Source of the DNA: Comamonadaceae bacterium
GTDB lineage: Bacteria; Pseudomonadota; Gammaproteobacteria; Burkholderiales; Burkholderiaceae_C
Direction of reading: 5' to 3'
Assembly (NCBI GenBank): GCA_027484105.1
Contig: JAIXUG010000025.1
Location: 85,742 to 149,741 of the forward strand
Length of the DNA: 64,000 bases
How positions within the stretch are numbered: position 1 is the first letter of the stretch; each line of letters starts with the position of its first letter. Below, piece after piece: positions 4,975-29,610 of this stretch. The position numbers and the translations under genes are program-made. Under the pieces are notes generated by a model. It saw only the letters and a list, made by a program, of their open reading frames with translations, did no database searches and had not been told where the DNA came from.

Positions 4975-5032
4975 TGTAAAGCCCATGCACTGTCGGGGAA
5001 GGCGGTGAGGGCGTTTGACTTGTTTGTTTCAA

Positions 5033-6913
5033 ATGAAAAATCGTTCCATTCGTGCGCGTCGCTTTGCGCCTGCATTTTCCATCCTGTCCTTGGCCGTGGC
5101 CGCCTGTTTGCAAGCTCAAACGATTGAGCTGAATCCTGTGGTGGTATCGGCAACCCGCATCGAGCAAAAACTCTCGGATGTCATTCCTTCTGCTACCGTC
5201 ATTACCCGCGAGGAGATTGAGCGTTCACAAGCGCCAACTTTCATCGACCTGATCCAAGGCCAGCCTGGCATTGAAATTGGCCGCAACGGTGGGCCAGGCA
5301 CGGTGTCATCCATCTTCATGCGTGGACAAGCGAGCGCAAACGTTGCCGTTTTTGTAGACGGTATTCCAGTGCAGCGTGACTCTTTTGGTGGCCTCAAGCT
5401 TGTTGATATTCCACCGAGTCAAATTGAAAAAGTTGAAATTCTGCGTGGCAATATGAGTGCCATTTACGGTGAATCTGCCGTGGGTGGCGCCATTCACATC
5501 TTTACCCTCGCTGGCGCAGGCAAATCCGGTCCCATTGCTTCGGTGGGTTATGGCTCGCGCAACACCTCGAATCTGACTGCAGGCTACAACCTGAAAGGAG
5601 AAGATTTCAAACTCGGGTTCACTGCTCAAAAATTTAAGACGGATGGTTTTTCAGCGATGAATCCCCGTGAAAGTGCACTTGTTAACCCAGACAAAGATGC
5701 ATTTGAGCGAGAGTCTTTTTTTATAAATGGTGAAAAAAGGGTGAGCAAGGATTTGGCGATCGGGTTTCAAGCCAATAGCATTGACTCTAAAGTGGAATAT
5801 GACAGCACGAGCAACCCTAATTTCGGTCCCGCATCACCATCTGACAGACAAAATTCAAAACAAAAGTCAAGTGACCTGACAGCATACAGTCGAGCTAATC
5901 TCTCGACTGACTGGACTTCTCGACTTGCCATCACACAATCTGATTTCAAAAATCAGGAGTTCTATAACGGTTCCGCAAATGGCACCTATATCGGTAATCA
6001 GCTAGGCGTTCAGTGGGGTAACAACTACAAGCTTGGCACTGGCAACGCCAACTTTGGCGTTGATTTAATCAAAGCTGAGTTCAAGACACCGACAAAATAT
6101 GAGCGTGATTCTCTGGGATCTTACGTTGGTTACAGTGGTCGCTTTGATCGATTGGACTACCAAGCCAACTTACGCCGCGATGAGATCAAATCCCAAGAGG
6201 GCAACACATCCAAAGCAAATTCTGCAAACACGTGGCTCATTGGTGGTGGCTACAGTTTGACTGATTCAACAAAATTAATTGGACTTTTGTCAACATCTTT
6301 CCGAGCGCCTGCTGTCAGTGATCTTTTCGGTGTGCCCAGTTGGGGCCAGAATCCCAACCCAGATCTGAAACCTTCTGAACACAAAGGGGGAGAGTTCGGG
6401 CTTCAGCAGCGGAGCTCGATTGGTCTGCTGCGTGCGGTCTACTTCAAAACAGAGACGAAGAATGATTTTGAATGGAGAAATAGACAAATCAATAACATTG
6501 CCCGAACGGAAAACGAAGGTGTGGAGCTTGGTCTTAGCGGCTCAGCAGCAGGGTGGGGTTACAAGCTGAATGCAGTACTTCAAGATCCAAAAAACGCAGA
6601 GTCAGGGGTACGTCTTGCTCGCCGCGCAAAAGAATACGGTTCGATTGGTTTGACCAAGACCGCGATGGGTGTTGATTGGGGGTCCAATGTTATTTGGTCG
6701 GGAAACAGAACTGACAGTCACGTAGTCACTTTTGCTTCCGTGACAAATTCAAGCTTTACCGTCGTCAACCTAACTGCTTCCAAGAAGCTAACGCCGGAGT
6801 GGACAGGCAGGGTCAGGGTCGAAAATGCTTTCAATGAAAATTACCAGCTCGTTCATGGCTACAACACCCCTCGACGCGGTGTGTTCGTGACACTGCAATA
6901 TCAGCCTAAGTAA
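5033..6913 (+). CDS. btuB: TonB-dependent vitamin B12 outer-membrane receptor
   Basis: Outer-membrane beta-barrel that imports cobalamin with TonB energy. The 626-residue protein has a signal peptide (residues about 1-29, ending ACLQAQ), a TonB-box-like NPVVVSATR stretch, a plug domain with VFVDGIPV and the YGESAVGGAIHI motif, then a barrel ending in an aromatic-rich strand (GVFVTLQYQPK). The cobalamin riboswitch upstream fixes the ligand. ATG 5033 has no good ribosome site. An in-frame TTG at 5015 lies four bases after GGTGAGG and may be the real start, adding six residues before the signal peptide. The barrel part has lower GC and more AAA/AAT codons than its neighbours, as is usual for surface loops. 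Confidence 0.93.
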   Translation: MKNRSIRARRFAPAFSILSLAVAACLQAQTIELNPVVVSATRIEQKLSDVIPSATVITREEIERSQAPTFIDLIQGQPGIEIGRNGGPGTVSSIFMRGQASANVAVFVDGIPVQRDSFGGLKLVDIPPSQIEKVEILRGNMSAIYGESAVGGAIHIFTLAGAGKSGPIASVGYGSRNTSNLTAGYNLKGEDFKLGFTAQKFKTDGFSAMNPRESALVNPDKDAFERESFFINGEKRVSKDLAIGFQANSIDSKVEYDSTSNPNFGPASPSDRQNSKQKSSDLTAYSRANLSTDWTSRLAITQSDFKNQEFYNGSANGTYIGNQLGVQWGNNYKLGTGNANFGVDLIKAEFKTPTKYERDSLGSYVGYSGRFDRLDYQANLRRDEIKSQEGNTSKANSANTWLIGGGYSLTDSTKLIGLLSTSFRAPAVSDLFGVPSWGQNPNPDLKPSEHKGGEFGLQQRSSIGLLRAVYFKTETKNDFEWRNRQINNIARTENEGVELGLSGSAAGWGYKLNAVLQDPKNAESGVRLARRAKEYGSIGLTKTAMGVDWGSNVIWSGNRTDSHVVTFASVTNSSFTVVNLTASKKLTPEWTGRVRVENAFNENYQLVHGYNTPRRGVFVTLQYQPK

Positions 6914-6918
6914 AGCGC

Positions 6919-7722
6919 ATGCAAAGCTTCTTGCCCCAACGCATCGTCTGCCTCACCGAGGAGACCACGGAGTGGCTGTACCTGCTGGGGCAAGAGGCGC
7001 GGATCGTGGGCATCAGTGGCTACACAGTGCGTCCGCGCCGGGCCCGCGAAGAAAAGCCCAAGGTGAGTGCATTTTTGAGCGCCAAGATTGACAAAATTTT
7101 GGCCCTCAAGCCCGATTGTGTTTTTGGCTTTTCGGATTTGCAGGCCGACATTGCGTCTTTGTTGATTAAGGCGGGTGTGCAGGTCACGGTGTTCAACCAG
7201 CGCAGCGTGGACGAGATTTTTTCGGTGCTTTACCAGGTCGCGGCCATGGTCGGGCAGACCGAGCAAGGTTTGGGAAAGCTTGCTGCCATGCGGGCCGATT
7301 TGGACGCCATGGCCCAGCGTTCGGCCGCATTCAGGCGCCGTCCGCGCGTGTATTTTGAAGAGTGGGACGAGCCCCACATGAGCACCATCCGTTGGGTCTC
7401 GGAGCTGATCACCATCGCCGGGGGGGACGACATCTTTCCCGAATTGGCCGTGATGCCCATGGGCCGCGACCGCATCATCGCCAGCGGCGACACCATCGTT
7501 GAGCGCTCTCCCGACATCATCATTGGCTCGCTGTGTGGCAAGAAGTTTCGGCCCGAAAAAGTCGCCGCTCGTTCAGGTTGGCAAGACATCCCAGCCGTTC
7601 GAAACGGACAGATTTTTGAAATCAAATCCGCCGACATACTGCAACCCGGCCCAGCGGCTTTGACCGATGGCGCCGCGCAGTTGCATCGCATCATGTTGGG
7701 TTGGGCAGCCAGACATGGCTAA
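6919..7722 (+). CDS. BtuF-like cobalamin-binding protein without signal peptide
   Basis: A 267-residue protein of the helical-backbone (BtuF/FhuD/TroA-type) metal-chelate-binding fold. It shows the family opening RIVCLTEETTEWLYLLG, the I-LALKPD block near residue 55 and a C-terminal domain with ADILQPGPA. There is no hydrophobic leader: the protein begins MQSFLPQRIVCL, directly at the first beta strand. It therefore appears to be cytoplasmic, unlike the following gene. It starts five bases after btuB stops and overlaps btuF by 8 bp, so it is part of the B12 operon. It may bind cobalamin or a precursor inside the cell, or depend on another export route; this is inference. Confidence 0.8.
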   Translation: MQSFLPQRIVCLTEETTEWLYLLGQEARIVGISGYTVRPRRAREEKPKVSAFLSAKIDKILALKPDCVFGFSDLQADIASLLIKAGVQVTVFNQRSVDEIFSVLYQVAAMVGQTEQGLGKLAAMRADLDAMAQRSAAFRRRPRVYFEEWDEPHMSTIRWVSELITIAGGDDIFPELAVMPMGRDRIIASGDTIVERSPDIIIGSLCGKKFRPEKVAARSGWQDIPAVRNGQIFEIKSADILQPGPAALTDGAAQLHRIMLGWAARHG

Positions 7723-8602
7723 GCGCTGGGCCACCGTTTGGGCTTGCTGGGCGATATGGTGCTCATCGGCCGCCATGGCCGTGACGGTCACCGACGACCG
7801 CGGCCAAGCGGTGCAACTGACGCAGGCACCGCAGCGCATCGTCAGCCTCTTGCCCTCCTTGACCGAAACCGTGTGTGCGTTGGGCGCTTGCCAAAGGCTG
7901 GTGGGTGTGGACCGCTATTCGAACTGGCCCGACTCGGTCAAGCGCTTGCCCTCGGTTGGCGGTGGTTTGGACCCGAGCCTGGAGCGCATCGTTTCGCTCA
8001 AACCCGATTTGGTCTTGGCCGCAGGCTCCACGCGGGGCGCAGAGCGTCTGGAGGCTTTGGGCTTGAAGGTCTTGCGCTTGGAGCCGCGCAACCACGCCGA
8101 TGCGCAGCGCGTGTTTGCCGCTGTAGGACTGGCTTTGCACCTGCCACCCGCGCAAACCGATCGGGCCTGGCAGCGCATCCAAGACGAGTTAAACAGCGCC
8201 ATCGAAACCCTGCACCCCGTGGCGCGGTCTTGGCGCGTGTACGTGGAGGTCAGTCCCACACCGTATGGCGCGAGCGAGTCCTCCTTCATTGGCGAGACCT
8301 TGCAACGCATGGGCGTGGGCAACATCTTGCCCGCAGCCTTGGGGCCGTTTCCGCAAATCAACCCCGAATTCGTGGTGCAAGCACAGCCCGACGTGATTTT
8401 GGCTGGCGACAGCAGCCGCGCGCAGCTGCTGCAGCGTCCCGGTTGGTCGCGCCTGAAAGCCATCACCCACCAGCGCCTGTGTGTGTTCAAGCCCGAAGAG
8501 TCCGATGTTTGGGTGCGCGCCGGCCCCCGCATGGCCGAGGGTGCTCGCCTGATGGTGGCCTGTTTGAACCGGGCCGCTCAAGGCGCGCAGGTGCGGCCAT
8601 GA
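7715..8602 (+). CDS. btuF: Periplasmic cobalamin-binding protein of the B12 ABC importer
   Basis: Binds cobalamin in the periplasm and delivers it to BtuCD. From ATG 7715 the protein is 295 residues with a signal peptide (MAKRWATVWACWAIWCSSAAMA). The mature protein opens VTVTDDRGQAVQLTQAPQRIVSLLPSLTE, the standard BtuF family start, with the LKPDLVLA block near residue 98 and the typical SLNP/FPQINPEFV segment of the second lobe. The start overlaps the previous gene's end (ATGGCTAA) and the stop overlaps btuC (ATGA). An upstream in-frame start at 7667 is rejected because it would bury the signal peptide. Confidence 0.88.
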   Translation: MAKRWATVWACWAIWCSSAAMAVTVTDDRGQAVQLTQAPQRIVSLLPSLTETVCALGACQRLVGVDRYSNWPDSVKRLPSVGGGLDPSLERIVSLKPDLVLAAGSTRGAERLEALGLKVLRLEPRNHADAQRVFAAVGLALHLPPAQTDRAWQRIQDELNSAIETLHPVARSWRVYVEVSPTPYGASESSFIGETLQRMGVGNILPAALGPFPQINPEFVVQAQPDVILAGDSSRAQLLQRPGWSRLKAITHQRLCVFKPEESDVWVRAGPRMAEGARLMVACLNRAAQGAQVRP

Positions 8603-9600
8603 AACAGCACACGCACACCCTGCGCTGGGCCTTGGGTTTGTGGCTGATGGGCCTGTGCTGGGTCTTTTTGGGCACGGCTGCGGGCAGCGAGGGCTGGCAA
8701 GCTTGGTGGTGGCAAGCCGACGAACTGGCCCATCAGATCGTGGTCGACATCCGTTTGCCGCGCAGCTTGGGCGCTTGGCTGGGGGGGGCTTTGCTGGGCT
8801 TGGCTGGCGCGGTCGCGCAGGGCCTGTTTCGCAACCCGCTGGCCGATCCGTACCTTTTGGGCAGCGCCTCGGGCGCGTCCTTGGGCGTGGCCTTGTACCT
8901 GAGTGTCTTTGGTGGCAGTGTGTGGGCCGTGCAGTTGTGGATGGGCTTGGGCATGACCGGTGCGGCCTTTGTCGGTGCGGTGTTGGCGGTGATGCTCACA
9001 CTGACCTTGGCGCGTGGCGTGCAACAAACGCTGCGGCTTTTGCTTGCGGGGGTGGTGGTCGGTGTGGTCTTGGGCGCTTTGACGTCTTTGCTGTCGCTGC
9101 TGCAGCCGCAGGTCTTGCAGGCCATGCAAGGCTTCATGTTGGGTTCAACCGCGTTCGTGGGTTGGGTGGCTTGCGGCCTCTTGTCAGCGGTTTTGTTGGC
9201 GTGCCTGTTTTTGTCGGCGGTGTTCGCACGCGTCTTGGACGCCTTGACCTTGGGCGAGGCCACGGCGCAAAGCTTGGGGGTGCCGCTGCGCTCGGCGCGT
9301 TTGGCCCTGGTGGGGGTGCTGTCGCTGGCCACGGGTGCGGCGGTAGCGCACATCGGCTTGGTGGCGTTTGTGGGCTTGGCTGCGCCACACTTGGTGCGCT
9401 CGCTGGTGCGCAGCACCCATGCGGGCGCTTTGCTCTTGTCGGCGCTCATGGGCGGCTTGTTGTTGGTGGTGGCCGATGTGTGGGCGCGGGTGCTGTTCGC
9501 TCCGCAGGAACTGCCCGTGGGGGTGCTCACCGCGGTCATTGGCGGCGGTTATTTGCTCTGGCGGGTGTTCCGCGTGTCCGAACCCGGGGGGCGCGCATGA
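8599..9600 (+). CDS. btuC: B12 ABC transporter permease (FecCD family)
   Basis: Inner-membrane subunit of the cobalamin importer, 333 residues with about nine to ten hydrophobic helices. The FecCD signature is seen in DIRLPRSLGAWLGGALLGLAG, the NPLADPYLLGSASGASLGV block, and the C-terminal FVGLAAPHLVRSL coupling loop. ATG 8599 overlaps the btuF stop and its own stop overlaps btuD by 4 bp. The frame stays open for a long way upstream inside btuF, but that extension is not coding. Confidence 0.92.
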   Translation: MKQHTHTLRWALGLWLMGLCWVFLGTAAGSEGWQAWWWQADELAHQIVVDIRLPRSLGAWLGGALLGLAGAVAQGLFRNPLADPYLLGSASGASLGVALYLSVFGGSVWAVQLWMGLGMTGAAFVGAVLAVMLTLTLARGVQQTLRLLLAGVVVGVVLGALTSLLSLLQPQVLQAMQGFMLGSTAFVGWVACGLLSAVLLACLFLSAVFARVLDALTLGEATAQSLGVPLRSARLALVGVLSLATGAAVAHIGLVAFVGLAAPHLVRSLVRSTHAGALLLSALMGGLLLVVADVWARVLFAPQELPVGVLTAVIGGGYLLWRVFRVSEPGGRA

Positions 9601-10385
9601 AGCTGGCACTGGAATCCCAAGCACTGGGCCTGATCTTGGGCCAACGCGCCGTCTTGCACGCGGTGGATGTGCGCATCCCTGCGGGACGCTGGACCTGCGT
9701 GGTGGGACCCAACGGCGCAGGCAAGTCGAGCTTGCTCAAAGCCTTGGCGGGTCTCTTGCCGACCAGCGGCCAAGTGCGATGGCACGGCCAAGACCTCCAC
9801 ACCTTGGACCGGCGAGCGCGTGCTTTGCAACTGTCTTGGTTGGGGCAGGGTGAGGCCACCACGCTGGACCTGCGGGTGTGGGACGTGGCCATGCTCGGGC
9901 GTTTGCCGCACCAGGGTTGGTGGGGCACGCCCACGGCGCAGGACGCGCAGATGTGCGAGGCCGCGCTCAAAGCCACCCAAGCTTGGGATTGGCGCGAACG
10001 CACGCTGGGCGAACTCTCCGGCGGTGAGCGCCAGCGCGTGCTGCTGGCCCGTGCCATGGCGGCCAATGCGTCCATCATGCTCATGGACGAGCCGCTGGCC
10101 AATCTGGACCCGCCACACCAAGTCGATTGGCTGGAGCAGGTGCATTGCTTGCGCGCGCAAGGCACCACGGTGGTGAGTGTCTTGCATGAGATTGGCATGG
10201 CGCTGCATGCCGACGACATCATCGTCATGGACCAAGGCCGCATCGTGCACCACGGTGCCTGTGAGGACGAGGCCACGCACCGCGCCATTGAAGCGGTGTT
10301 TGATCAGCGCATCCGCATCTGCCCTTTGGATGGCCAGTGGGTGGTGCTGCCCACTGCGCTTGACCCTGTCGCTCAGCGCTTGTAG
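9597..10385 (+). CDS. btuD: B12 ABC transporter ATPase
   Basis: Cytoplasmic ATPase that powers BtuCDF, 262 residues. Walker A is GPNGAGKSS near residue 37, the ABC signature is LSGGERQR near residue 140, and Walker B is IMLMDEP followed by the switch histidine in SVLHEIGMALH. The length and the short N-terminal strand before Walker A fit BtuD/FecE. It is the last gene of the riboswitch-controlled operon and overlaps the convergent DUF2894 gene by 13 bp at its 3' end. Confidence 0.92.
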   Translation: MKLALESQALGLILGQRAVLHAVDVRIPAGRWTCVVGPNGAGKSSLLKALAGLLPTSGQVRWHGQDLHTLDRRARALQLSWLGQGEATTLDLRVWDVAMLGRLPHQGWWGTPTAQDAQMCEAALKATQAWDWRERTLGELSGGERQRVLLARAMAANASIMLMDEPLANLDPPHQVDWLEQVHCLRAQGTTVVSVLHEIGMALHADDIIVMDQGRIVHHGACEDEATHRAIEAVFDQRIRICPLDGQWVVLPTALDPVAQRL

Positions 10386-10990
10386 GCGGCGGCCGCAGGT
10401 GCTGGTTTCTGCGATTTGGGCTCAGACTTTCGGCCTGTGGTGACGCTTGCTTTGCCAACATCTTCCAGGCTGAGCAAGGTGTCCACATAGCCCATGAATC
10501 GGCTCAGGTAGTCCGGGGAAATGTCGCGCATGAGGCCCAGTGACCGAAGCACCAGCATGTGCGAGTTGATGGGGCCGGCATTTTGCGGGGCCTGGGCGAT
10601 GGCCTGGTTGACCTGCTTTTGCACGCTGATCTTGCCCAGTTGTTGACGAAACTGGCGCACGCGCGGGTTTTCGAATGGATGAGCGCCAGGATGGGTGGAG
10701 CGCTCGCGGTGACTGCGGTGGGACATGTCGTGCAGCAAGGCGGCCAGCGCCGAGGGTGGCGTTGGGGCCACTTGGCTGGGGGCATCGCATGGGGATGGGG
10801 TGACGCCCATGCGCGACTGTAGCTCGTCCAAGGCTTGCAGCACTTTGCGCTCCAGCAGGGACTGCACCGCCGGTGCATGACGGAGACCGCGCTTGGCCAG
10901 TGCTTCGATGTGCTGCCAGGCGAGCGGGTCAAAGCGATCGGCACCCTTTGCCCGCAGCGTGTCGAGCGCGGCTAACACCTTGGGGCTCAT
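10373..10990 (-). CDS. DUF2894 protein, fourth gene of the motor-like operon
   Basis: Cytoplasmic protein of 205 residues with no signal peptide or membrane segment. The N-terminal 60 residues are helical (LAALDTLRAKGADRFDPLAWQHIEALAKR). A Pro-rich linker follows, then a helical block with NPRVRQFRQQLGKISVQKQVNQAIAQ and a GPINSHMLVLRSLGLMRDISPDYLSRFMGYVDTL region, and a basic Ala-rich tail. It resembles DUF2894 proteins, whose function is unknown. Its start overlaps the OmpA gene's stop by 4 bp, so it is made with the motor genes. A role as cytoplasmic partner or effector of that motor is only inferred from position. Confidence 0.75.
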   Translation of the reverse strand: MSPKVLAALDTLRAKGADRFDPLAWQHIEALAKRGLRHAPAVQSLLERKVLQALDELQSRMGVTPSPCDAPSQVAPTPPSALAALLHDMSHRSHRERSTHPGAHPFENPRVRQFRQQLGKISVQKQVNQAIAQAPQNAGPINSHMLVLRSLGLMRDISPDYLSRFMGYVDTLLSLEDVGKASVTTGRKSEPKSQKPAPAAAAYKR

Positions 10991-11646
10991 GGTGCGCGGC
11001 CGCCTGGTGCAGCGCCTGGAGCGTTCTGGGCTTTGGGCACAGGCGCCATTTCGACGCGGCGGTTTTGCGCCCGTGCGGGTTCACTGGTGTTGGCCACCAG
11101 GGGTTGCTCTTGGCCAAAAGCGGCAGCGAACAAGAGGGACGAGGGCATGCCTTCTTCGATGAGGGTGCGCGTGACGGTCAGTGCGCGCTGGGCAGAGAGT
11201 TCCCAATTGTCTGCAAACTCTCGGTTGCGGCTGCTGACCGCCTTGTCGTCGGTGAAGCCGCTGACCATCAAGATTTCATCGCGCGTTTGCAGGTAGCTGC
11301 GCAACGGTGGCACCAGACTTTTGAGCAATTGGCGGCCTTCGGGTTCAAGTTGGTCAGAGTTCAAGCGAAACAGCAGTTTGCCGCTGATGCCGATGCGGCC
11401 ATTGTTCAGGGTGATGCGGCCGCTGGCCAAAGGAACAGCCAGGGCTTGCTCCAGAGACAGCCGTTTTTGCTCTTCCACCTGCCGTTTTTGAACTTCGTTT
11501 TCGAGCTGGGAGGCCATGTCCAGTTGCGCCGCCATCACGGCCACCAACAGCAGCACAAACGCACCCAGCAAGCCGGTCATCAGGTCGGCGAAAGAGATCC
11601 AGCTGGTCGACATGGATTCGACGTCCGCGTCGTGTTCGCGCATCAA
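10987..11646 (-). CDS. MotB/ZorB-like OmpA-family stator protein
   Basis: A 219-residue inner-membrane protein with one N-terminal helix (about residues 17-40) and a periplasmic OmpA-type peptidoglycan-binding domain. The helix begins SWISFADLM, placing Asp21 where MotB, ExbD and ZorB carry their proton-binding aspartate. The OmpA domain shows LFRLNSDQLEPEG, VSGFTDDK, LSAQRALTV and NRRVEM, all typical. A short linker of about 40 residues joins them. It is the second subunit expected for the MotA/ExbB-like channel encoded by the overlapping upstream gene. A second possible start, at Met12, gives the same domains. The substrate of the motion is unknown. Confidence 0.85.
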   Translation of the reverse strand: MMREHDADVESMSTSWISFADLMTGLLGAFVLLLVAVMAAQLDMASQLENEVQKRQVEEQKRLSLEQALAVPLASGRITLNNGRIGISGKLLFRLNSDQLEPEGRQLLKSLVPPLRSYLQTRDEILMVSGFTDDKAVSSRNREFADNWELSAQRALTVTRTLIEEGMPSSLLFAAAFGQEQPLVANTSEPARAQNRRVEMAPVPKAQNAPGAAPGGRAP

Positions 11647-13802
11647 ACGGCCTCCTCGGTGCTTGTGGCAGACCGGTGCTGCAAGGCTTGCAACACGTCT
11701 TGTTGCGAGGTGATGCTCAGGTCGATGATCTCTCTGGCTTGTGCCACGTAATAGGCCAGTTGCTCGTCGCTGCGCGTCATCGATTTGTCGATGGCCTGCT
11801 CGATGCGATGCAGTTGGGACATGAGTTTGTCATTGGTTTCGCTGAAGCTGCGCACCGCAAAGGCCATGGCTTCGCCCAGGCTGGCCACATCAACGGCGCT
11901 GGCCGTGAGCTGGGCGGCCATGTCGCCCAGCTTGCCCGTCTCGGCCGCCACCTGCAGCTGGAACTGTTCGCTGGTGTGTGACAAAGAGGTCTGGCTGGTG
12001 ACCAGCAGCGCGTCGATCACGCCGCGTTGTTCGGTGGATGCGTGGTGGATGGTCTGCAGCAAGTTGCTCAGGGTCTCCAGAATGCGGGTGCGCTCTTCGA
12101 GCAAGGCGTTGTCACGCGCCACGCTGTGAGAGATTTCCTGGCGCATTTGGCCGATGACCTCGGCTGCCGCTTTGGGCGCTTCGCTGGCGGTGGCAATCAG
12201 TTGCGTGATGGGTGCTTCGAGCGCCTGGCCCAGAGTGCCCAGGTGTTTGCTGACCTCTGCCTGCAATTGGTCCAAGCGCGCCACGGCGGCTTGGCCACGT
12301 AGCTCTTCAGCATCGCGCAGGGCCGACAGCTCGGTTCGCAGCACTTGCGTCAATTCATGGGCGCGCTGGCTGTGCGCACGGGTCCACTCGACCTCTGAGG
12401 CCATGCGCGCTTGGATCAGGGCCTCGCTGCTGGCCATCAGGCGGGTGACTTCGGCCAAAGTTTGCGTGGCCTGGGTCTGGCTGTGGGTGGTGATCTGCTG
12501 CGCTGTCTGGGTCAGCGTGTCGCAAATGGCTTGTTGTTGCGCCAAGGTCTTGTCGCCTACGCTTTGCCACTGGCTGTGCAATTGCTCGGCCAGCTGCGTC
12601 AGTGCGGCCTGGCAGGCTTGCTGGCGCGCTTGCTCGGCGCTGTCTTGTTGGGTTTGTTGTGCGGTTTGCGCAGCATGCAGTTGCGCGATCAAGGCTTGTG
12701 TGCTCTGCTCGGCGTTTTGGCTGAAGTTGTGCAAAGTTTGGCCCACTTGCGCGGTCATGCGGGCGTTGGTTTGTTCGTGGTGCGCCAGGCTGTCAGCGCT
12801 CGTTTGTGCCACTGTAGCGGTGACAGCAGCCATCTGGTTCTTCAGCTCGCTCAGTTGATCGCGGGTGTGTTCCAGCAGTTGCGCATTGATGTTTTGCGCT
12901 TGTGCGGCCATGTGCGCCAGGGTGTCCTGCACGATCGGGCGCATGCCTTCGCTGGCCAGGTGCAAACTCTGGCTCAAGCTGGTGCGCAGCGACTGGTCCA
13001 CCGATTGCGCCAAACCGGTGTATGCCGCTTGCACTTCGGTGTGAAAGCGCGTCTGGTTGGCCAACAGGCTTTGCTGCCATTGCTCGCTGGATTGCGTCAT
13101 TTGCGCCAGCATGGCCTGCAATTGCGAGAGCACTTGGGGCAGCGCTTGGGCTTGTTCTTGGAGGGTGACAAAACTTTCTTGGCGCTGGTGCACCAAGGAA
13201 AAGCGGCGCAGTCGTGTGGCGATCAGGGTGTCTAGGGTGTGCGAGGCCTGAGCCCGTTCGCGGCGAGCCAAATGGTTCATCAGGCCCAGCATGGCCGAGG
13301 TGGCCACCCCCGCCACCGAGGTGCCAAAGGCCAGGCCCAAGCCTTTGATGGGTTCGGAAAACGCGGCCCGGATGCCCGCCACGTTGCTCGATCCTTCGAG
13401 TGCAAACACCGCACCATTGAGTGTGACCACCATGCCCAAAAAGGTGCCGAGCATGCCCAGCATGACCAGCAAGCCCACCAGAAATGGCGTGAAGGTGGGG
13501 CCAGGCAAAGCCACGCCCTCGCCGTCGATGCGCTGGCGCACGGTGTTGTGCAGGCCTGCTGGCAGCGTGACCAGCCATTCGTCCAATTGCGCCAAGTCTG
13601 CAGGGGTCTTGTCCAGGGCCTCTTGCAAAGTGCGGGTGGTGGCGCGGTATTGGTGCAACTCCAGTGCGCCGAACACATACACGGCGCCGATCAGGGTGGA
13701 CATGGCCAGCACCAGCGGGTGCGAACTGGCCACGGCGCTGGTGACCCAGACCGTCGCCAAGAGGCCCAAGGCAAAGGCGATCAAAAATGCAGAGCGTTTC
13801 AT
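11643..13802 (-). CDS. DUF802 protein: MotA/TolQ/ExbB-like channel with long coiled-coil tail
   Basis: A 719-residue protein. Four hydrophobic helices are visible at about residues 5-24, 29-49, 106-127 and 152-174. The last two carry the proton-channel pattern: GMLGTFLGM in the third, and IKGLGLAFGTSVAG in the fourth, the same layout as MotA, TolQ, ExbB and ZorA. The remaining 540 residues are Gln-, Ala- and Thr-rich, without proline-rich breaks, and read as one very long cytoplasmic helix or coiled coil, as in ZorA tails. It overlaps the DUF3348 gene upstream and the OmpA gene downstream by 4 bp each. The family is catalogued as DUF802; the motor interpretation is inference from motifs and the MotB-like partner. 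Confidence 0.8.
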   Translation of the reverse strand: MKRSAFLIAFALGLLATVWVTSAVASSHPLVLAMSTLIGAVYVFGALELHQYRATTRTLQEALDKTPADLAQLDEWLVTLPAGLHNTVRQRIDGEGVALPGPTFTPFLVGLLVMLGMLGTFLGMVVTLNGAVFALEGSSNVAGIRAAFSEPIKGLGLAFGTSVAGVATSAMLGLMNHLARRERAQASHTLDTLIATRLRRFSLVHQRQESFVTLQEQAQALPQVLSQLQAMLAQMTQSSEQWQQSLLANQTRFHTEVQAAYTGLAQSVDQSLRTSLSQSLHLASEGMRPIVQDTLAHMAAQAQNINAQLLEHTRDQLSELKNQMAAVTATVAQTSADSLAHHEQTNARMTAQVGQTLHNFSQNAEQSTQALIAQLHAAQTAQQTQQDSAEQARQQACQAALTQLAEQLHSQWQSVGDKTLAQQQAICDTLTQTAQQITTHSQTQATQTLAEVTRLMASSEALIQARMASEVEWTRAHSQRAHELTQVLRTELSALRDAEELRGQAAVARLDQLQAEVSKHLGTLGQALEAPITQLIATASEAPKAAAEVIGQMRQEISHSVARDNALLEERTRILETLSNLLQTIHHASTEQRGVIDALLVTSQTSLSHTSEQFQLQVAAETGKLGDMAAQLTASAVDVASLGEAMAFAVRSFSETNDKLMSQLHRIEQAIDKSMTRSDEQLAYYVAQAREIIDLSITSQQDVLQALQHRSATSTEEAV

Positions 13803-14590
13803 GGTGAGGTGATGTGTTCTTGTTGTAAGGCTTCCAGCAGGCCCAGCGTGGGTTGCAGCCGGGTGTCCAGTTCAGCCAGCAAGGCATTGCGCATGGCTTC
13901 TTGCAAGGGCGCCAGCCAGCTGCCGGGGTGATCGGCTGTCGCTGTTGGGGCCGTGGATGCAGAAGGGTTTTCGCCTTTTGACTTCGATTGGATGTGCTGT
14001 TTCAGCGCTTGCGCAAAACGCTTTTCGTGCAGCTTGACCACTTTGGCCAGCAGCAAGGCTTCGCGCTCGTCCAAAATGCCTTCAAAGGCCCCATCCAGTG
14101 TCGCCAGCTGTTGCAGTCCCGGGCTGCTTTGGGCCACTTGACCCCTGACTTGGCCGCGCAGGGTGCGCAGGACCGTTTCCATTTGCCGCTGGTGGGCGGC
14201 ATAAAAACGGCGGTAGGGCTCAAACGCGGTTTTGGGCTCGATGGGTTCATCCAGGGTGGGTGCTGGCATGTCCATGCGTGTCAGCCCAGAACCGGGGGGA
14301 GCGCCTTGCACGATGGATTGCTCCAGCTGGCTGCGTACCTGGTTCACGTGTTGGGTCAATGCGCCGATGCTGATGCGCTTTGGATGCCGTTGAGGCGAAG
14401 CAGCCGTTGTGCTTGGCTGCTCCGGGTTCAGCACAGCATGCAAGCCAATGGCTTGGCGAAAGTTCAGCCAGTCGCCCAAGCTTTGTCCGACTTCCTCCCG
14501 CGCCGGGGCGGCGTCCAGCAGGGCGTTTTCGGTCAAAAAACGCGTCAGGCGGGAACTGTTGAAGTGGGCACGCGGCAGGACTCGCGTCAT
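13799..14590 (-). CDS. DUF3348 protein, first gene of the motor-like operon
   Basis: Cytoplasmic protein of 263 residues resembling DUF3348, function unknown. It opens MTRVLPRAHFNSSRLTRFLTENALLD, with an acidic-aromatic block DWLNFRQAIGLHAVL near residue 39. The middle contains FEPYRRFYAAHQRQMETVLRTLRGQVRGQV, and the rest is largely helical with FAQALKQH and a C-terminal ELDTRLQPTLGLLEALQQE. There is no signal peptide and no membrane segment. It leads a four-gene operon in which each stop overlaps the next start. The 174 bp upstream, between it and nth, hold a TAAAAT that could be a -10 box, but no good -35. Confidence 0.75.
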   Translation of the reverse strand: MTRVLPRAHFNSSRLTRFLTENALLDAAPAREEVGQSLGDWLNFRQAIGLHAVLNPEQPSTTAASPQRHPKRISIGALTQHVNQVRSQLEQSIVQGAPPGSGLTRMDMPAPTLDEPIEPKTAFEPYRRFYAAHQRQMETVLRTLRGQVRGQVAQSSPGLQQLATLDGAFEGILDEREALLLAKVVKLHEKRFAQALKQHIQSKSKGENPSASTAPTATADHPGSWLAPLQEAMRNALLAELDTRLQPTLGLLEALQQEHITSP

Positions 14591-14764: not shown

Positions 14765-15397
14765 TCAAGTGGTTTTGGGCTTGAAATCGCAACAGGCAGC
14801 CACGGCGCATTGCCCGCACAGGGGTTTGCGCGCTTGGCAGACATAGCGTCCGTGCAGGATCAGCCAGTGATGGGCATCCACCAAGTATTTGGCCGGGATG
14901 CGCTTGAGCAGCTTTTGCTCCACTTCCAGAGGCGTTTTGCCCGGGGCCAGGCCCGTTCGATTCCCCAGCCGAAAGATGTGCGTGTCCACCGCCATGGTGG
15001 GCTCGCCGAAAGCACAATTGAGCACCACATTGGCCGTTTTGCGACCCACCCCGGGCAGGGCCTCCAGCGCTTCACGGGTGCGGGGCACTTGGCCGCCATG
15101 CTGCGCCACCAAGATGCGGCAGGTTTCCATCAGGTGCTTGGCTTTGCTGCGGTAAAGGCCAATGGTCTTGATGTAACCCTCCAGACCCTCCAGACCGAGG
15201 TCCAGGATTTTTTGCGGCGTGCCCGCCACCGGGAACAGCTTGCGCGTGGCTTTGTTCACGCCCACGTCGGTGGCCTGGGCCGACAGCAGCACGGCGGCCA
15301 GCAGCTCGAACACGCTGGTGTATTCCAGCTCGGTCACGGGCATGGGGTTGGCGGCCTGCAGGGTGGCAAAGAAGGATTCGATCTGTGCGGGTTTCAT
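14765..15397 (-). CDS. nth: Endonuclease III
   Basis: DNA glycosylase/AP lyase that removes oxidised pyrimidines in base excision repair. The 210-residue protein has the helix-hairpin-helix LPGVGRKTANVVL with the catalytic Lys of the hairpin near residue 117. The essential Asp lies in the following AVDTHIFRL segment. The C-terminal [4Fe-4S] motif is Cys-x6-Cys-x2-Cys-x5-Cys in VCQARKPLCGQCAVAACC. It is divergent from the aminotransferase gene with only 69 bp between them. Confidence 0.96.
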   Translation of the reverse strand: MKPAQIESFFATLQAANPMPVTELEYTSVFELLAAVLLSAQATDVGVNKATRKLFPVAGTPQKILDLGLEGLEGYIKTIGLYRSKAKHLMETCRILVAQHGGQVPRTREALEALPGVGRKTANVVLNCAFGEPTMAVDTHIFRLGNRTGLAPGKTPLEVEQKLLKRIPAKYLVDAHHWLILHGRYVCQARKPLCGQCAVAACCDFKPKTT

Positions 15398-18486: not shown

Positions 18487-21400
18487 TCAGGCCGGGACGG
18501 TTTCCGCCTTTGGCTGCCCCAAACTGCGCAACACATCCCTCACCATCTGCGCCCGTGCCTTGGGGTCGGGCAGTTCGCGTTCGATGCGGATTTTGTCGTT
18601 GCCCGCCAGCTTGATGTGTTTGTTTTTCTGGATCAGGCCGATGATGGCCATGGGGTCCACGGGCGGGTTGGGCTTGAAGGTGATCTGGATGACGCCCGGC
18701 GCAGCGTCGACCTTGATCACGCCATAAGGTTGGGTCAGCACGCGCAGACGGTGCACATCCACCAGGGTTTGCGCTTGGGCGGGCAGTTTGCCAAAGCGGT
18801 CCACGATTTCCTCGAGCAGGGCGTCGATCTGGTCGCTGGTTTTGGCAGTCGCCAGCTTTTTGTAGAACGACAAGCGCAGGTGCACATCGCCGCAGTAGTC
18901 GTTGGGTAAGAGGGCGGGAGCGTGCAGGTTGATGTCGGTGGTGACCGACAGGGGGCTGAGCAAATCGGGCTCTTTGCCCGCCTTGAGGCAGCGCACCGCC
19001 TCGGACAGCATTTCGTTGTAGAGCTGAAAACCCACTTCGAGCATGTTGCCACTCTGGTTTTCGCCCAGCACTTCGCCCGCGCCACGGATCTCCAGGTCGT
19101 GCATGGCCAGATAAAAGCCGCTGCCCAATTCTTCCATTTGCTGGATCGCGTCCAGCCGCTGGGCGGCTTGCTTGGTCAGGCCCTCGATCTCGGGCACCAT
19201 CAAATAGGCATAGGCCTGGTGGTGTGAGCGGCCCACACGCCCGCGCAGCTGGTGCAGCTGGGCCAGGCCGAATTTGTCGGCACGTGAAATGACGATGGTG
19301 TTGGCCGTGGGCACGTCGATGCCGGTTTCGATGATGGTCGAGCACAGCAAGATGTTGTAGCGCTGGGCCACAAAGTCGCGCATCACGCGCTCGAGCTCAC
19401 GCTCGGGCATCTGGCCGTGGGCCACGGCGATGCGGGCTTCGGGCAGGATTTCTTCGAGCTTTTGGCGGCGGTTTTCGATGGTCTCGACCTCGTTGTGCAA
19501 AAAGTAGCACTGCCCGCCGCGCTTGAGTTCGCGCAGCACCGCCTCGCGGATCACGCCCGTGCCTTCGTTGCGCACAAAGGTCTTGATGGCCAAGCGGCGC
19601 TGGGGTGCGGTGGCGATCACACTCAAATCGCGCAGGCCTTCCAGGGCCATGCCCATGGTGCGCGGGATGGGGGTGGCCGTGAGCGTGAGCACGTCGACTT
19701 CGGCGCGCAGGGCTTTCATGGCCTCTTTGTGACGCACACCAAAGCGGTGCTCTTCGTCGATGATCAAGAGGCCCAGGTTCTTGAAGCGGGTCTTCTCCGA
19801 CAGCAGCTTGTGGGTGCCGACCACAATGTCCACCGTGCCGTCTTCGATGCCTTTCATGGCCGCAGTGACTTCCTTGCCGGATCTGAAGCGTGAGATCTCG
19901 GCCACCTTGACGGGCCATTTGGCAAAACGGTCTTGGAGGGTTTGGTAGTGCTGCTCGGCCAGCAGCGTGGTGGGCGCCAGCAGGGCGACCTGCTTGCCGC
20001 CCGTGACGGCCACAAAGGCGGCGCGCAAGGCCACCTCGGTTTTGCCAAAGCCCACATCGCCGCAGACCAGGCGGTCCATGGGGCGGGGGCTGATCATGTC
20101 TTGAATGACACAGTGGATGGCCGCCTTTTGGTCGGCGGTTTCCTCAAAGCCGAAGTCGTTGGCAAAGGTTTCGTAGTCTTGCGGGCTGTAGCGGAAGGCG
20201 TGGCCTTCGCGTGCGGCCCGGCGGGCGTAGATGTTGAGCAGCTCGGCGGCCGAGTCGCGCACCTGCTCGGCGGCTTTGCGTTTGGCTTTTTCCCACTGGC
20301 CCGAGCCGAGTTTGTGCAGTGGCGCTTCGTCAGCGCTCACGCCCGTGTAGCGGCCAATCAGCTGCAGCTGGCTCACGGGCACATACAGCGTGGCTTGGTC
20401 GGCGTATTCCAGGTGCAAGAACTCCTGCAAGGCTGGCGTGCCGTCCTCGTTTTTCTGGCCCATGTCCATGTTGACCAAGCCCCGGTAACGGCCAATGCCG
20501 TGCTGGCTGTGCACCACCGGGTCGCCCACGTTCAGCTCGCTCAGGTCTTTGATCAGCGCCTCGACGTCGCTGACCTGTTCCTGCTTTTTGCGTCGGCGGG
20601 TGGTGGGGCCTGCGGCAAAGAGTTCGGTTTCGGTGACCAGGTCGACGCCATGCTCAAACCAGTGAAAACCGCTGACCAAGGCCGCTGTGGCCATGCCGAC
20701 TTTTTCGTCGCTGTCCAAAAATGCTTGCAGGCTGTCAAACACCGGGGGCGTGAGGCCGCTGGAGCGCATAAAGTCGAGCAAGCTCTCTCGGCGGCCATCG
20801 CTTTCGGCCAGGATCAGCACGCGGGTTTGGCCGCTGCGGATGTGCGCTTGCAACCGGGCCAAAGGGTCGTCGGCACCGCGCACCACCGTGAGTTCGGGCA
20901 GTGGCTGGGCCAGGGTGTTGTTTTCGACTTCGTCGGTGCCGGGACGCAAAGCCAGCTGCGCATGGCCGTTGGTCAGGGTGTAGAACTGTTCGGCGCTCAA
21001 AAACAGCGCATCGGGTGGCAGCACAGGCCGCTCGGGGTCGCCTTGCACCAAGCGGTAGCGGTCGCGGGTGTCTTGCCAAAAGCGCTGGAAGGCGGGTTCG
21101 AGATCGCCGTGCAGCACCACGGTCGCGGCGTCCGTTTGACCTGCTCCCAGGTAATCAAACACCGTGGCGGTTTCTTCAAAAAACAGTGGCAGGTAATACT
21201 CGATGCCTGCCGTGGCCACGCCGTTGCCCATGTCTTTGTAGATGCGGCTCTTGGTCGGGTCGCCTTCGAGCAATTCGCGCCAACGGCTGCGAAAGCGCGC
21301 TCGGGCCGTCTCGTCCATCGGGAACTCGCGCCCTGGCAGCAGCCGCACCTCGGGCACGGGGTAGAGGCTGCGCTGGCTGTCGGGGTCAAAGGTACGGATG

Positions 21401-21981
21401 GAGTCGATCTCGTCGTCGAACAAATCCACCCGGTAAGGCACCAGCGAGCCCATGGGGAACAAATCGATCAGACCACCGCGCACCGCGTATTCACCGGGGC
21501 TGACGACTTGGCTGACGTGTGAATAGCCCGCCAGCGTGAGCTGGGCCTTGAGTTGGGTTTCGTCGAGCTTTTGCTTGACCTTGAACTCGAAGGTGTAGCC
21601 CGCCAGAAAGGATGGCGGTGCCAGCCGGTACAGCGCCGTGGTGGCAGGGATCAGCACCACGTCGGCGCTCTCGGCGTGGTTGCGCTGCTGGATGCGCCAC
21701 AGCGTGGCCAGTCGCTCTGAAATCAGGTCCTGGTGCGGCGAGAAGGTGTCGTAGGGCAGGGTTTCCCAGTCGGGGAACACCACGCAGCGCAGGCTGGGGG
21801 CAAAAAACACCAGCTCGTCCATCAGGCGCTGGGCGTCGGCCGCGTCGCTGGTGACGATGGCCGTGAGTTTGCCCGCCTTTTTCTCGCGCTCGGCCAGTTG
21901 GGCCAACAGCACGGCATCGGCCGACCCGGCAGGGCGCGGCAGGGTGAAACGTTTGCCAGAAATGAGGCTGGGCAGTGGCAT
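18487..21981 (-). CDS. mfd: Transcription-repair coupling factor
   Basis: Large ATPase that removes stalled RNA polymerase from damaged DNA and recruits UvrA. About 1164 residues, usual for Mfd. Domain order: UvrB-like N-terminal part (VVFPDWETLPYDTFSPHQ); RNA-polymerase-interacting domain with GDPVVHSQHGIGRYRG; helicase domain with Walker A CGDVGFGKTEVALRAAF, DEEH box in LLIIDEEHRFG and LTLTATPIPRTM; the TRG/helicase part with GRVGRSHHQAYAYL; then the C-terminal TRCF domain. ATG 21981 is preferred; a TTG at 22014 would lie in the T-rich tail of a hairpin. Neither has a clear ribosome site. See the hairpin entry for possible leader control. Confidence 0.97.
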   Translation of the reverse strand: MPLPSLISGKRFTLPRPAGSADAVLLAQLAEREKKAGKLTAIVTSDAADAQRLMDELVFFAPSLRCVVFPDWETLPYDTFSPHQDLISERLATLWRIQQRNHAESADVVLIPATTALYRLAPPSFLAGYTFEFKVKQKLDETQLKAQLTLAGYSHVSQVVSPGEYAVRGGLIDLFPMGSLVPYRVDLFDDEIDSIRTFDPDSQRSLYPVPEVRLLPGREFPMDETARARFRSRWRELLEGDPTKSRIYKDMGNGVATAGIEYYLPLFFEETATVFDYLGAGQTDAATVVLHGDLEPAFQRFWQDTRDRYRLVQGDPERPVLPPDALFLSAEQFYTLTNGHAQLALRPGTDEVENNTLAQPLPELTVVRGADDPLARLQAHIRSGQTRVLILAESDGRRESLLDFMRSSGLTPPVFDSLQAFLDSDEKVGMATAALVSGFHWFEHGVDLVTETELFAAGPTTRRRKKQEQVSDVEALIKDLSELNVGDPVVHSQHGIGRYRGLVNMDMGQKNEDGTPALQEFLHLEYADQATLYVPVSQLQLIGRYTGVSADEAPLHKLGSGQWEKAKRKAAEQVRDSAAELLNIYARRAAREGHAFRYSPQDYETFANDFGFEETADQKAAIHCVIQDMISPRPMDRLVCGDVGFGKTEVALRAAFVAVTGGKQVALLAPTTLLAEQHYQTLQDRFAKWPVKVAEISRFRSGKEVTAAMKGIEDGTVDIVVGTHKLLSEKTRFKNLGLLIIDEEHRFGVRHKEAMKALRAEVDVLTLTATPIPRTMGMALEGLRDLSVIATAPQRRLAIKTFVRNEGTGVIREAVLRELKRGGQCYFLHNEVETIENRRQKLEEILPEARIAVAHGQMPERELERVMRDFVAQRYNILLCSTIIETGIDVPTANTIVISRADKFGLAQLHQLRGRVGRSHHQAYAYLMVPEIEGLTKQAAQRLDAIQQMEELGSGFYLAMHDLEIRGAGEVLGENQSGNMLEVGFQLYNEMLSEAVRCLKAGKEPDLLSPLSVTTDINLHAPALLPNDYCGDVHLRLSFYKKLATAKTSDQIDALLEEIVDRFGKLPAQAQTLVDVHRLRVLTQPYGVIKVDAAPGVIQITFKPNPPVDPMAIIGLIQKNKHIKLAGNDKIRIERELPDPKARAQMVRDVLRSLGQPKAETVPA

Positions 21982-21999
21982 GGTGGAGAGGGGCAAAGG

Positions 22000-22044
22000 C
22001 GAAGAAAAAAGCAAAACACCCCCCGCCGAGAGGGAGGGGGGTGT
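22000..22044 (-). terminator. Intrinsic-terminator-like hairpin in the mfd leader
   Basis: A 9-bp perfect stem (ACACCCCCC at 22016-22024 with GGGGGGTGT at 22036-22044) and an 11-base loop. Read on the minus strand it is followed by TTTGCTTTTTT. It lies 19-64 bp ahead of the mfd ATG and downstream of a possible promoter (TTGCGG, 15 bp, TAAAAT at 22071-22066). It would therefore stop mfd transcription early unless bypassed, or it ends a very short RNA. Confidence 0.7.
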
Positions 22045-27333: not shown

Positions 27334-29610
27334 ATGGTCAGCCCCAGCTCCAGCCACCCCGCCAGCCCGATGTCTGCCGCCGGGCGTCTGCACGCACCGG
27401 CCAACCCAGTGCCCCATGTGGTGCTGGCCACCGCCGATGCCACCACCCAGGACTTGCAGGCCGAAACCCTGGCCAAGGCCCGTGCTTTTGCCGCGCCTTT
27501 GATTGCCGATGAAACACTGGACACGGGCGAAAACATCCTGCAGCATGCCGACGCGGTGGCCGCCATCCTGGCCGACATTGGCGGCTCATTGGCCATGCAA
27601 GCGGCCAGTTATTTGGTCTATGCCTGCCCGCACCTGAACAAGCCTGAAGAAATCATGGCCAAGGCCTTTGGCCCGCATTTGGCGCAACTGGCCATGCAAA
27701 CCAACCAGCTGGTGCATGTGCAGCGCTTGTCCAGAGCGGCCGAACCCCACACGCAGGGACCGGACAACACCCCACTGAGCCCCCGGTTGCAGACCGAAAA
27801 CGTGCGCAAGATGCTGCTGGCGTTCAGCCGCGACTTGCGCGTGGTCATGCTGCGCCTGGCTTCGCGCCTGCAGACCCTGCGCCATTACGCGGCGACCAAA
27901 TTGCCCGTACCACCTGTGTTGGCCAGTGAATCGTTGCAGGTCTTTGCCCCCTTGGCCAACCGCTTGGGCATTTGGCAAATCAAATGGGAGATGGAAGACC
28001 TGTCCTTTCGATTTGTGGAGCCTGCCACTTACAAAGACATCGCCCGGCTGCTCGACGAAAAACGCGCCGAACGTGAGCGTTACATGGTGGCCCTGCGCGA
28101 GCGGCTGCAGCAAGCTTTGGCCAGCCAAGGCATTGAAGCCAACGTGGAGGGGCGGCCCAAACACATCTACAGCATTGTCAAGAAGATGCGCGGCAAATCA
28201 CTGCCGTTTGAGCGCGTGTTTGACGTGCGCGCACTGCGTGTGGTGGTGCCCAGCGTGGCGGACTGCTACCAGGTGCTCAGTTGGGTGCACGAGCATTTTG
28301 TGCCCATTGCCGAAGAGTTTGACGACTACATCGCCAAGCCCAAAGCCAACGGCTACCAGTCGCTGCACACCGTGGTGCGCGATGCCGATGGCGGCCCCAT
28401 CGAGGTGCAAATTCGCACCCAGGCCATGCACGAGCACGCCGAACACGGCGTGGCCGCGCACTGGGCTTACAAAGAAGCCGGGGCCAAAGGCTATGCCGGG
28501 GTCTCGGCCAACAGCGAATACGACACCAAAATTGCGGTGCTCCGGCAACTGCTGGCTTGGGAGCGCGACCTGTCGGGAGCCGCGCAGCAACAAGCCCAAG
28601 ACAAAGGCCTGTTTGACGACCGCATCTACGTGTTGACGCCCGATGCCGCCGTGGTGGAACTGCCGCAAGGCGCCACACCCATTGACTTCGCTTACACGGT
28701 ACACACCAATTTGGGCCACCGTTGCCGGGGTGCCAAGGTGGACGGGGCCATGGTGCCCTTGAACACCCAGCTGGCCAATGGCCAGACGGTGGAGATCACG
28801 GCCATCAAAGAGGGGGGTCCTTCACGCGACTGGCTCAATCCCGAGTTGGGCTTTTTGGCCAGTCCGCGCGCACGGGCCAAGGTGCGCGCCTGGTTCAACG
28901 CGCAAGTCAGCGCCGAAACCATCGCCCGGGGCCGCGAAGCGGTCGAAAAATCCTTGCAAAGACTGGGCCGCACCGCCATTCGTCTGGACGATTTGGCCAG
29001 CCAATTGGGCTTCAAGTCGGCAGACGGCTTGTTCGAGGTGGTGGGCAAGGACGAGTACTCGCTGCGCAACATCGAGGTCTTGCTCAACCCGCCCGAGCCT
29101 GCGCTGGAGCCTGACGAGTATTTTCAGAAAAAATTCAACGGCGCAGTTGCCCGCAAGTCGCCCTCCGGCGTGCTGGTGGTGGGGGTGGACTCACTGCTGA
29201 CGCAGTTGTCGCGCTGCTGCAAACCTGCGCCTCCGGATGCGATTGGGGGCTTTGTCACTCGCGGTAAGGGCGTGAGCATCCACAGGCAAGACTGCAGCAA
29301 CTTCCGCGAACTGGCTTCGCGCCATGCCGAGCGGGTGATTGAGGTGCGTTGGGGTGAACACAAAGGACCCGATGGCTCGGTTTATCCGGTGGACGTGTCT
29401 GTTGAGGCGTTTGACCGTCAGGGATTGTTGCGCGACATATCGGAAGTGTTTGCCAAAGAAAAAATGAATGTGATCGGCGTGCAAACCCAGTCCGTCAAAG
29501 GCACGGCCTGGATGACCTTCACGGTGGAAATCGGTGATGCCGTGAGCCTGAACCGGGTCTTGGTCACCGTTCGTGGCGTCAAAGGTGTCCGGGCCGCCCG
29601 CAGGCGTTGA
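27334..29610 (+). CDS. relA: (p)ppGpp synthetase RelA
   Basis: Makes (p)ppGpp on the ribosome when uncharged tRNA is present. 758 residues with four parts: an HD-fold N-terminus, the nucleotidyltransferase domain (KHIYSIVKKMRGKSLPFERVFDVRALRVVV, then PKANGYQSLHTVV), a TGS domain (DDRIYVLTPDAAVVELPQGATPIDFAY) and a C-terminal ACT domain. The His-Asp pair of the hydrolase site is lost (AASYLVYACPHL in place of a LLHD block), so this is the synthetase-only RelA rather than bifunctional SpoT. ATG 27334 is four bases after the hydrolase stop; ATG 27370 is a possible alternative. Confidence 0.92.
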   Translation: MVSPSSSHPASPMSAAGRLHAPANPVPHVVLATADATTQDLQAETLAKARAFAAPLIADETLDTGENILQHADAVAAILADIGGSLAMQAASYLVYACPHLNKPEEIMAKAFGPHLAQLAMQTNQLVHVQRLSRAAEPHTQGPDNTPLSPRLQTENVRKMLLAFSRDLRVVMLRLASRLQTLRHYAATKLPVPPVLASESLQVFAPLANRLGIWQIKWEMEDLSFRFVEPATYKDIARLLDEKRAERERYMVALRERLQQALASQGIEANVEGRPKHIYSIVKKMRGKSLPFERVFDVRALRVVVPSVADCYQVLSWVHEHFVPIAEEFDDYIAKPKANGYQSLHTVVRDADGGPIEVQIRTQAMHEHAEHGVAAHWAYKEAGAKGYAGVSANSEYDTKIAVLRQLLAWERDLSGAAQQQAQDKGLFDDRIYVLTPDAAVVELPQGATPIDFAYTVHTNLGHRCRGAKVDGAMVPLNTQLANGQTVEITAIKEGGPSRDWLNPELGFLASPRARAKVRAWFNAQVSAETIARGREAVEKSLQRLGRTAIRLDDLASQLGFKSADGLFEVVGKDEYSLRNIEVLLNPPEPALEPDEYFQKKFNGAVARKSPSGVLVVGVDSLLTQLSRCCKPAPPDAIGGFVTRGKGVSIHRQDCSNFRELASRHAERVIEVRWGEHKGPDGSVYPVDVSVEAFDRQGLLRDISEVFAKEKMNVIGVQTQSVKGTAWMTFTVEIGDAVSLNRVLVTVRGVKGVRAARRR

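Follow-up and report, generated by a model that had tools for sequence, protein, structure and literature searches.

A chromosomal operon of a Limnohabitans-like bacterium matches Zorya type III and encodes a predicted membrane motor and two proteins predicted to be helical

Judged by its sequence, the four-gene operon at 10373-14590 of the window (the whole 64,000-nucleotide stretch that was analysed) is a chromosomal copy of the known anti-phage set Zorya type III and not a new machine. The first-pass annotation was right to place it on the chromosome and to relate its core to ZorAB, the latter being confirmed by matches to the PADLOC models ZorA3 and ZorB3. Its proposal of a previously unknown Zorya-related machine had to be given up, because the type was named in 2021 by Payne et al. 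(PMC8565338). The reading that we favour, with a probability of about 0.55, is that this is a type III motor whose ZorA tail likely engages the DUF3348 and DUF2894 proteins, and that phage is stopped by binding rather than by DNA cutting.

All four genes lie on the minus strand at the coordinates first annotated, and Pfam confirmed their families as DUF3348, DUF802, OmpA and DUF2894. The first gene (13799..14590) encodes a DUF3348 protein of 263 residues (PF11828, 6.4e-53; PADLOC ZorG3, 1.3e-59). It is followed by genes for a 719-residue type III ZorA (11643..13802; PADLOC ZorA3, 9e-236), a type III ZorB (10987..11643; PADLOC ZorB3, 9.2e-103) and a 205-residue DUF2894 protein (10373..10990; PF11445, 9.5e-48; PADLOC ZorF3, 5.1e-57). 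Overlaps of 4 bp had been claimed for every junction. Two of the three have them (ATGA), whereas the ZorA/ZorB junction (TGATG) overlaps by 1 bp if the ATG at 11643 is the start of ZorB, and by 4 bp only if the start is an upstream TTG, the start of the listed reading frame. The ATG fits 11 aligned relatives and gives a ZorB of 218 residues. The aspartate reported in its membrane helix is present and is Asp20 by this count; the number 21 comes only from the TTG start.

The operon starts 174 bp after nth, an endonuclease III-like gene on the same strand that lies outside the system (14765..15397; HhH-GPD, 8.7e-23). On the other side, plus-strand genes for a FecCD-type permease and an ABC ATPase converge on it (7738..10385; FecCD, 2.8e-73; ABC_tran, 1.3e-28), and the ATPase reading frame extends 13 bp into the DUF2894 gene. 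These two belong to a series at 5015-10385, also convergent with the operon, that encodes a TonB-dependent receptor, a periplasmic binding protein, the permease and the ATPase, and makes up an uptake set of the metal or vitamin B12 type. Promoter and terminator scans returned nothing above shuffled sequences, and no flagellar genes were found among the neighbours scanned with family libraries. Weak PADLOC matches on nth, on mfd and on a kinase-free gene at 27334-29610 were attributed to domains in common and not counted as defence genes. A PIN-domain protein (1.7e-16) is encoded at 54823-55242.

All four proteins best matched the Zorya type III models of PADLOC, with scores of up to 783 bits, far above any other PADLOC model; the best type I or II matches were 1.2e-7 for ZorA and 3.4e-22 for ZorB. 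In NCBIfam, the sole model above its cut-off was an OmpA protein named hypothetical protein, and the anti-phage ZorA models matched weakly, below their cut-offs. The marks of type III were found together at the locus: adjacent zorA and zorB homologues, DUF3348 and DUF2894 genes flanking them, a predicted OmpA-type domain in ZorB (positions 1-98 of the 98 in the Pfam profile), a channel aspartate in the ZorB helix (Asp20) and a long cytoplasmic ZorA tail of 541 residues with coiled-coil periodicity. Compared with type III in PMC8565338, the families are the same four and nothing type-defining differs. What sets the window copy apart from others of its type is its Limnohabitans-like genome, its one-unit tail and its place between nth and transporter genes.

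The names of the two flanking proteins are swapped between sources. DUF3348 is ZorF and DUF2894 is ZorG in PMC8565338 and PMC11890865, and PADLOC-DB has the reverse, so the DUF names are used here. In the text of PMC8565338, moreover, zorBC pairs are named in places where zorAB was apparently intended. According to that paper, a type III set of Stenotrophomonas nitritireducens cloned in E. coli lowered phage plaquing, and the 2021 survey counted 6,401 type III systems. Type III Zorya appears in a figure of a 2026 paper as a highly conserved defence system in Ralstonia solanacearum (PMC13064858) and among the predicted defences in a Variovorax study (PMC11953036). In Burkholderia cenocepacia, the change during infection was limited to one or two Zorya III genes, the first of the set, and the authors' list of active systems, in the available part of the paper, omits Zorya III (PMC12584637); both points speak against the reading favoured here. 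In the passages available from Mariano et al. 2025 (PMC11890865), type III is covered in the introduction and distribution, the study itself being on types I and II, and a stator phylogeny excludes Zorya as too distant (PMC12505986). Our literature search on the DUF names, type III and the tail, which left many journals outside, found no study of single type III parts.

Hydropathy analysis of ZorA gave segments at residues 3-27, 29-49 and about 97-135 and a weaker one at 154-175, consistent with four predicted membrane helices. The third and fourth helices with GMLGTFLGM, as first annotated, agree with this. In the TM3-TM4 region (about residues 103-178; 13269..13496, minus strand), GMLGTF-GM, with Leu or Val at the open place, and the GTS of TM4 were invariant in 34 ZorA cores (alignment A4, the window plus 33 of 46 representatives). 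The profile of these cores had one significant match in the PDB, type I ZorA (8vvn_C, E 2.2e-6), over TM3-TM4, whereas the single window sequence found no significant solved relative. MotA was matched neither by the single sequence nor by the core profile. DUF802 had been seen as the channel part, but the Pfam family (PF05650, 7.2e-5) falls in the tail, at residues 323-372 (12687..12836, minus strand).

ZorB has one hydrophobic segment (13-46, counted from residue 2), and its OmpA domain was found with Pfam (2.6e-17), in agreement with the one helix with Asp and OmpA domain first described. The OmpA-type anchor matched MotB and PomB structures (3khn, 8.1e-15; 8zyv, 7.2e-10). Aligned set A1 held 12 of the 23 ZorB genes, the window included. 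The first-pass annotation would have been undermined by loss of the aspartate in most orthologues; instead, the motif F[AG]D[LI] was present in 79 of 79 ZorB called among the best 80 of 565 loci. The prediction is that ZorA and ZorB together make an ion-driven, cell-wall-anchored membrane motor. Type I and II structures have five ZorA around two ZorB (PMC11890865), and by analogy we infer the same arrangement here. Sodium was seen in type I ZorA in that paper, and the Thr of TM3 and Thr-Ser of TM4 are kept where type III ZorA aligns with type I, which was too little to name the ion.

Types I and II are understood to be motors delivering a nuclease to the point of attack (PMC11890865). With them (PDB 8vvn, 8vvi) the window set has in common ZorA and ZorB homologues, a channel Asp, an OmpA-type domain, a long ZorA tail and the Thr/Ser motifs of TM3-TM4, although the PDB profile match with type I ZorA covers TM3-TM4 only. 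It differs in its lack of ZorC, ZorD and ZorE beside zorAB, where two small helical proteins are found instead. At the locus, neither ZorC nor ZorD was found in the operon, the neighbours being nth and ABC transporter genes, and no ZorE nickase gene lies beside zorAB. DUF3348 and DUF2894 thus occupy the places of ZorC/D or ZorE, as had been proposed. The set shares with MotA/MotB and PomA/PomB the OmpA-type anchor of ZorB, but its ZorA has no MotA match by sequence or profile and carries 541 residues after the fourth helix, and none of the neighbours scanned was flagellar.

The predicted structures of the two flanking proteins were all-helical (DUF3348, pLDDT 86.2, pTM 0.82; DUF2894, pLDDT 78.2, pTM 0.41, a weak model). 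Neither has a membrane segment by hydropathy, and neither model had a PDB fold match at E <= 0.001. A Pfam scan of 65 DUF3348 members (set A2, the window plus 64 representatives of 71 genes called) gave no second recurring family beyond 3 of 65, weakly. In 74 DUF2894 members (set A3, the window plus 73 of 74 representatives, L132 being excluded because its start is doubtful), no second family went beyond 2 of 74, weakly, among the 25 of 30 families listed. In the same 25 families, single DUF2894 members touched GTP1_OBG (0.0022), APH (0.023) and AAA_11 (0.071). The DUF2894 profile weakly matched the secretion chaperone PscE (E 0.0042). With the family libraries searched, no nuclease or ATPase family recurred in either protein, and together with the all-helical prediction this makes a poor fit with the published nuclease-recruitment model. 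The absence of a family match is also compatible with some enzyme of a new family.

The four genes were kept together as a unit. Among 28 loci from order- and class-wide DUF3348 matches, 26 held all four in the same order and on the same strand; the other two were a contig end and a false match. When loci were found by ZorB instead, all four genes were callable in 70 of the best 80 of 565. Median pN/pS values (14-24 genomes per gene), which are rough because pS is near saturation (0.41-0.61), were 0.16 for ZorB, 0.27 for the ZorA core, 0.37 for the ZorA tail, 0.43 for DUF3348 and 0.50 for DUF2894. Constraint was therefore strongest on ZorB, followed by ZorA, DUF3348 and DUF2894. Among the neighbours, medians were 0.09 for mfd, 0.10 for nth and for the aminotransferase, 0.14 for the binding protein (9 genomes) and 0.21 for a hydrolase, the last exceeding ZorB. 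Cytoplasmic parts facing a partner that keeps changing should show such a rise from ZorB to DUF2894; high ratios in these parts can also mean relaxed constraint.

After the fourth helix, ZorA continues for 541 residues, close to the 540 or so residues of coiled coil first described. Self-similarity in 72 ZorA tails peaked at lags 22, 11, 7, 29, 18 and 33, a spacing of 7 and 11 residues, indicating by its pattern a hendecad-like coiled coil. These were 72 of 74 ZorA (73 from the best 80 of 565 loci, plus the window), two tails shorter than 350 residues being left out. With a rise of 1.5 Å per residue, the 541 residues would reach a length of some 80 nm. Within the genus, the differences between tails consist mainly of units of 73 residues, of which the window has a single copy (residues 389-461; 12420..12638, minus strand) and some relatives two or three. 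Among 23 full-length tails of the genus, the window included, three copies were found in 1, two in 6, one in 15 and a partial copy in 1. In one relative (L028), the unit was seen in the DNA as a 219-bp repeat. Differences of another kind were also seen: about 40 residues are missing at another place in three tails, and a further 22 in one.

Seventy-three residues correspond to 20 turns of 3.65 residues each, close to the hydrophobic period peaks measured in the tails (3.58 and 3.66), which suggests that the coiled-coil register of the unit may be under selection. In the phylogeny of units, first copies tend to group together and second copies likewise, with modest support. The simplest history starts with a single old duplication, to which a third copy was added later, and includes several losses. 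One genome (G013) has two units and its rpoB sister (G022) one. Unequal recombination between copies would suffice to produce exact losses. In a Curvibacter locus (L141), a ZorA of 1,011 residues has a tail repeat of 91 residues instead of 73.

The host is a Limnohabitans-like freshwater bacterium, and its closest named relatives, among the matches listed, were Limnohabitans. DUF3348 was found in 24 of 36 genomes of the genus, the window included; 24 genomes of other families gave one weak match, counted as false. In 18 of the 24 carriers, again with the window, nth lies beside DUF3348 (within 1.5 kb). Of the other six, three retain just the ABC gene on the opposite side, two (L033 and L044) have neither gene, and one contig was too short. 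In L033 and L044, neither nth nor the ABC gene was present in 4-9 kb per side, and either the operon or its surroundings have been rearranged. Sites without the operon were read in 7 of 12 non-carriers, with an nth-ABC gap of about 30-365 bp in four and 1.5-2.9 kb in three. The nth gene of eight non-carriers was 80-83% identical, and these probably belong to another branch; that of one (G024) was 97% identical, and the operon has apparently been lost there. No close nth was found in three incomplete genomes. A contig filed as Akkermansia muciniphila (L149) carries a Limnohabitans-like mfd, nth and operon, and looks mislabelled or contaminated.

An rpoB gene was recovered from 21 of the 30 genomes queried (none was obtained from G024), and its tree split 16 carriers from 5 non-carriers with support of 100. 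Operon and rpoB trees of 16 taxa had 8 of 13 splits in common, compared with a mean of 0.23 and a maximum of 3 in 2,000 label shuffles. The five splits of each with support of at least 95 did not conflict, although the operon data rejected the exact rpoB tree (AU, 8.8e-6). The operon was thus mostly inherited, with some disagreement left. Distances correlated with those of rpoB at r 0.58 for DUF3348, 0.37 for the ZorA core, 0.67 for ZorB and 0.58 for DUF2894. The operon genes track rpoB less than nth (0.78) and the aminotransferase (0.84; 13 genomes for both) do and more than mfd (0.10). Overall, the operon is largely resident within the genus, at a mostly constant chromosomal site, and core-like in its clade.

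The weak correlation of mfd (window 18487-22014 and relatives; r 0.10, p 0.33, 11 genomes) hints at recombination near this gene in the genus. Allele swapping or cassette exchange was considered for the operon, each gene of which rejected the flank tree (AU p 1e-3 to 4e-11, 14 taxa), and was dismissed after controls. The mfd data rejected the tree of nth plus aminotransferase as well (p 8e-7; reverse, 1.5e-4), and the operon genes also rejected one another, with likelihood differences of 33-42 versus 93-242 for flank trees.

Across the order and the class, the system was patchy. Of 399 genomes of the order, 25 gave a DUF3348 match, or 23 without two that were judged false, and of 369 of the class, 8 did. 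One false match (G044) lay in a gene read as HlyD-type from its translation, and the other (G177) at a locus with no zor gene. Operon neighbours are shared within Variovorax and within Aromatoleum; when neighbours were compared with each other, no family common to many genera was found. Relatives of ZorB occurred on 27 of 72,556 plasmid records, and 20 among the matches listed were 0.37-3.5 Mb long. DUF3348 had no match in 50,697 phage records, and DUF3348, ZorA and DUF2894 had no PHROG match.

In the reading that we favour, ZorA and ZorB would work as a membrane motor that is powered by ions and fixed to the cell wall. By analogy with types I and II, ZorB would grip a disturbed wall, the channel would open, and the ZorA tail would rotate or bend. 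The signal would pass along the tail to the cytoplasm, where the tail would likely contact the DUF3348 and DUF2894 proteins, and these would stop the phage by binding something, not by cutting DNA themselves. A more specific form is rather doubtful as a whole: a vertically inherited, clade-resident mechanical motor free of any nuclease, with a wall-triggered rotor, a rod lengthened and shortened in 73-residue steps that keep register, and a helical DUF3348-DUF2894 head that blocks incoming phage material by binding. The two proteins could instead be adaptors that recruit a chromosomal nuclease or helicase to the tail, with DNA damage as the output as in types I and II. This is possible, though doubtful. 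The Discussion of Mariano et al. 2025 (PMC11890865) was counted in its favour, and proteins predicted to be helical could be adaptors. However, no nuclease gene was seen travelling with the operon at loci of which 26 of 28 held the four genes, no neighbour family was widely common between genera, and the four cloned genes worked in E. coli (PMC8565338), so any recruited partner must exist there too.

A pure gating role of DUF3348 and DUF2894, with ion leakage through ZorAB as the output by which the infected cell is arrested, is unlikely. Payne et al. 2021 proposed regulation of ZorAB by both proteins (PMC8565338), and the lack of a recurring enzyme family in either agrees with this; yet gating parts would be expected to be as constrained as the channel, and these are the fastest-changing, an indirect argument. 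The first-pass annotation had also raised a housekeeping motor. Its core-like residence beside nth, a genealogy near that of rpoB, the absence of DUF3348 from phage records and the rarity of ZorB on plasmids speak for a mainly housekeeping envelope or motility motor, in which defence would be a side effect of overexpression. We consider this very unlikely, given the patchy occurrence in order and class, the absence from a genome (G024) that belongs to the carrier lineage by its nth, the fast evolution and the plaque reduction reported for a relative (PMC8565338).

The type itself was known; what is added here is its residence in this genus, the gene order kept across the loci sampled, its predicted helical parts with no recurring nuclease or ATPase family match, the gradient of constraint and the 73-residue tail units. 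Type III is well conserved and largely clade-resident, encodes no recognisable nuclease, and has the least understood output of the three Zorya types. If defence without DNA cutting is true, the combination of a rotary motor and two proteins that bind would represent a kind of immune effector new for Zorya. Tails of one, two and three units within one genus form a natural set for the question of tail length.
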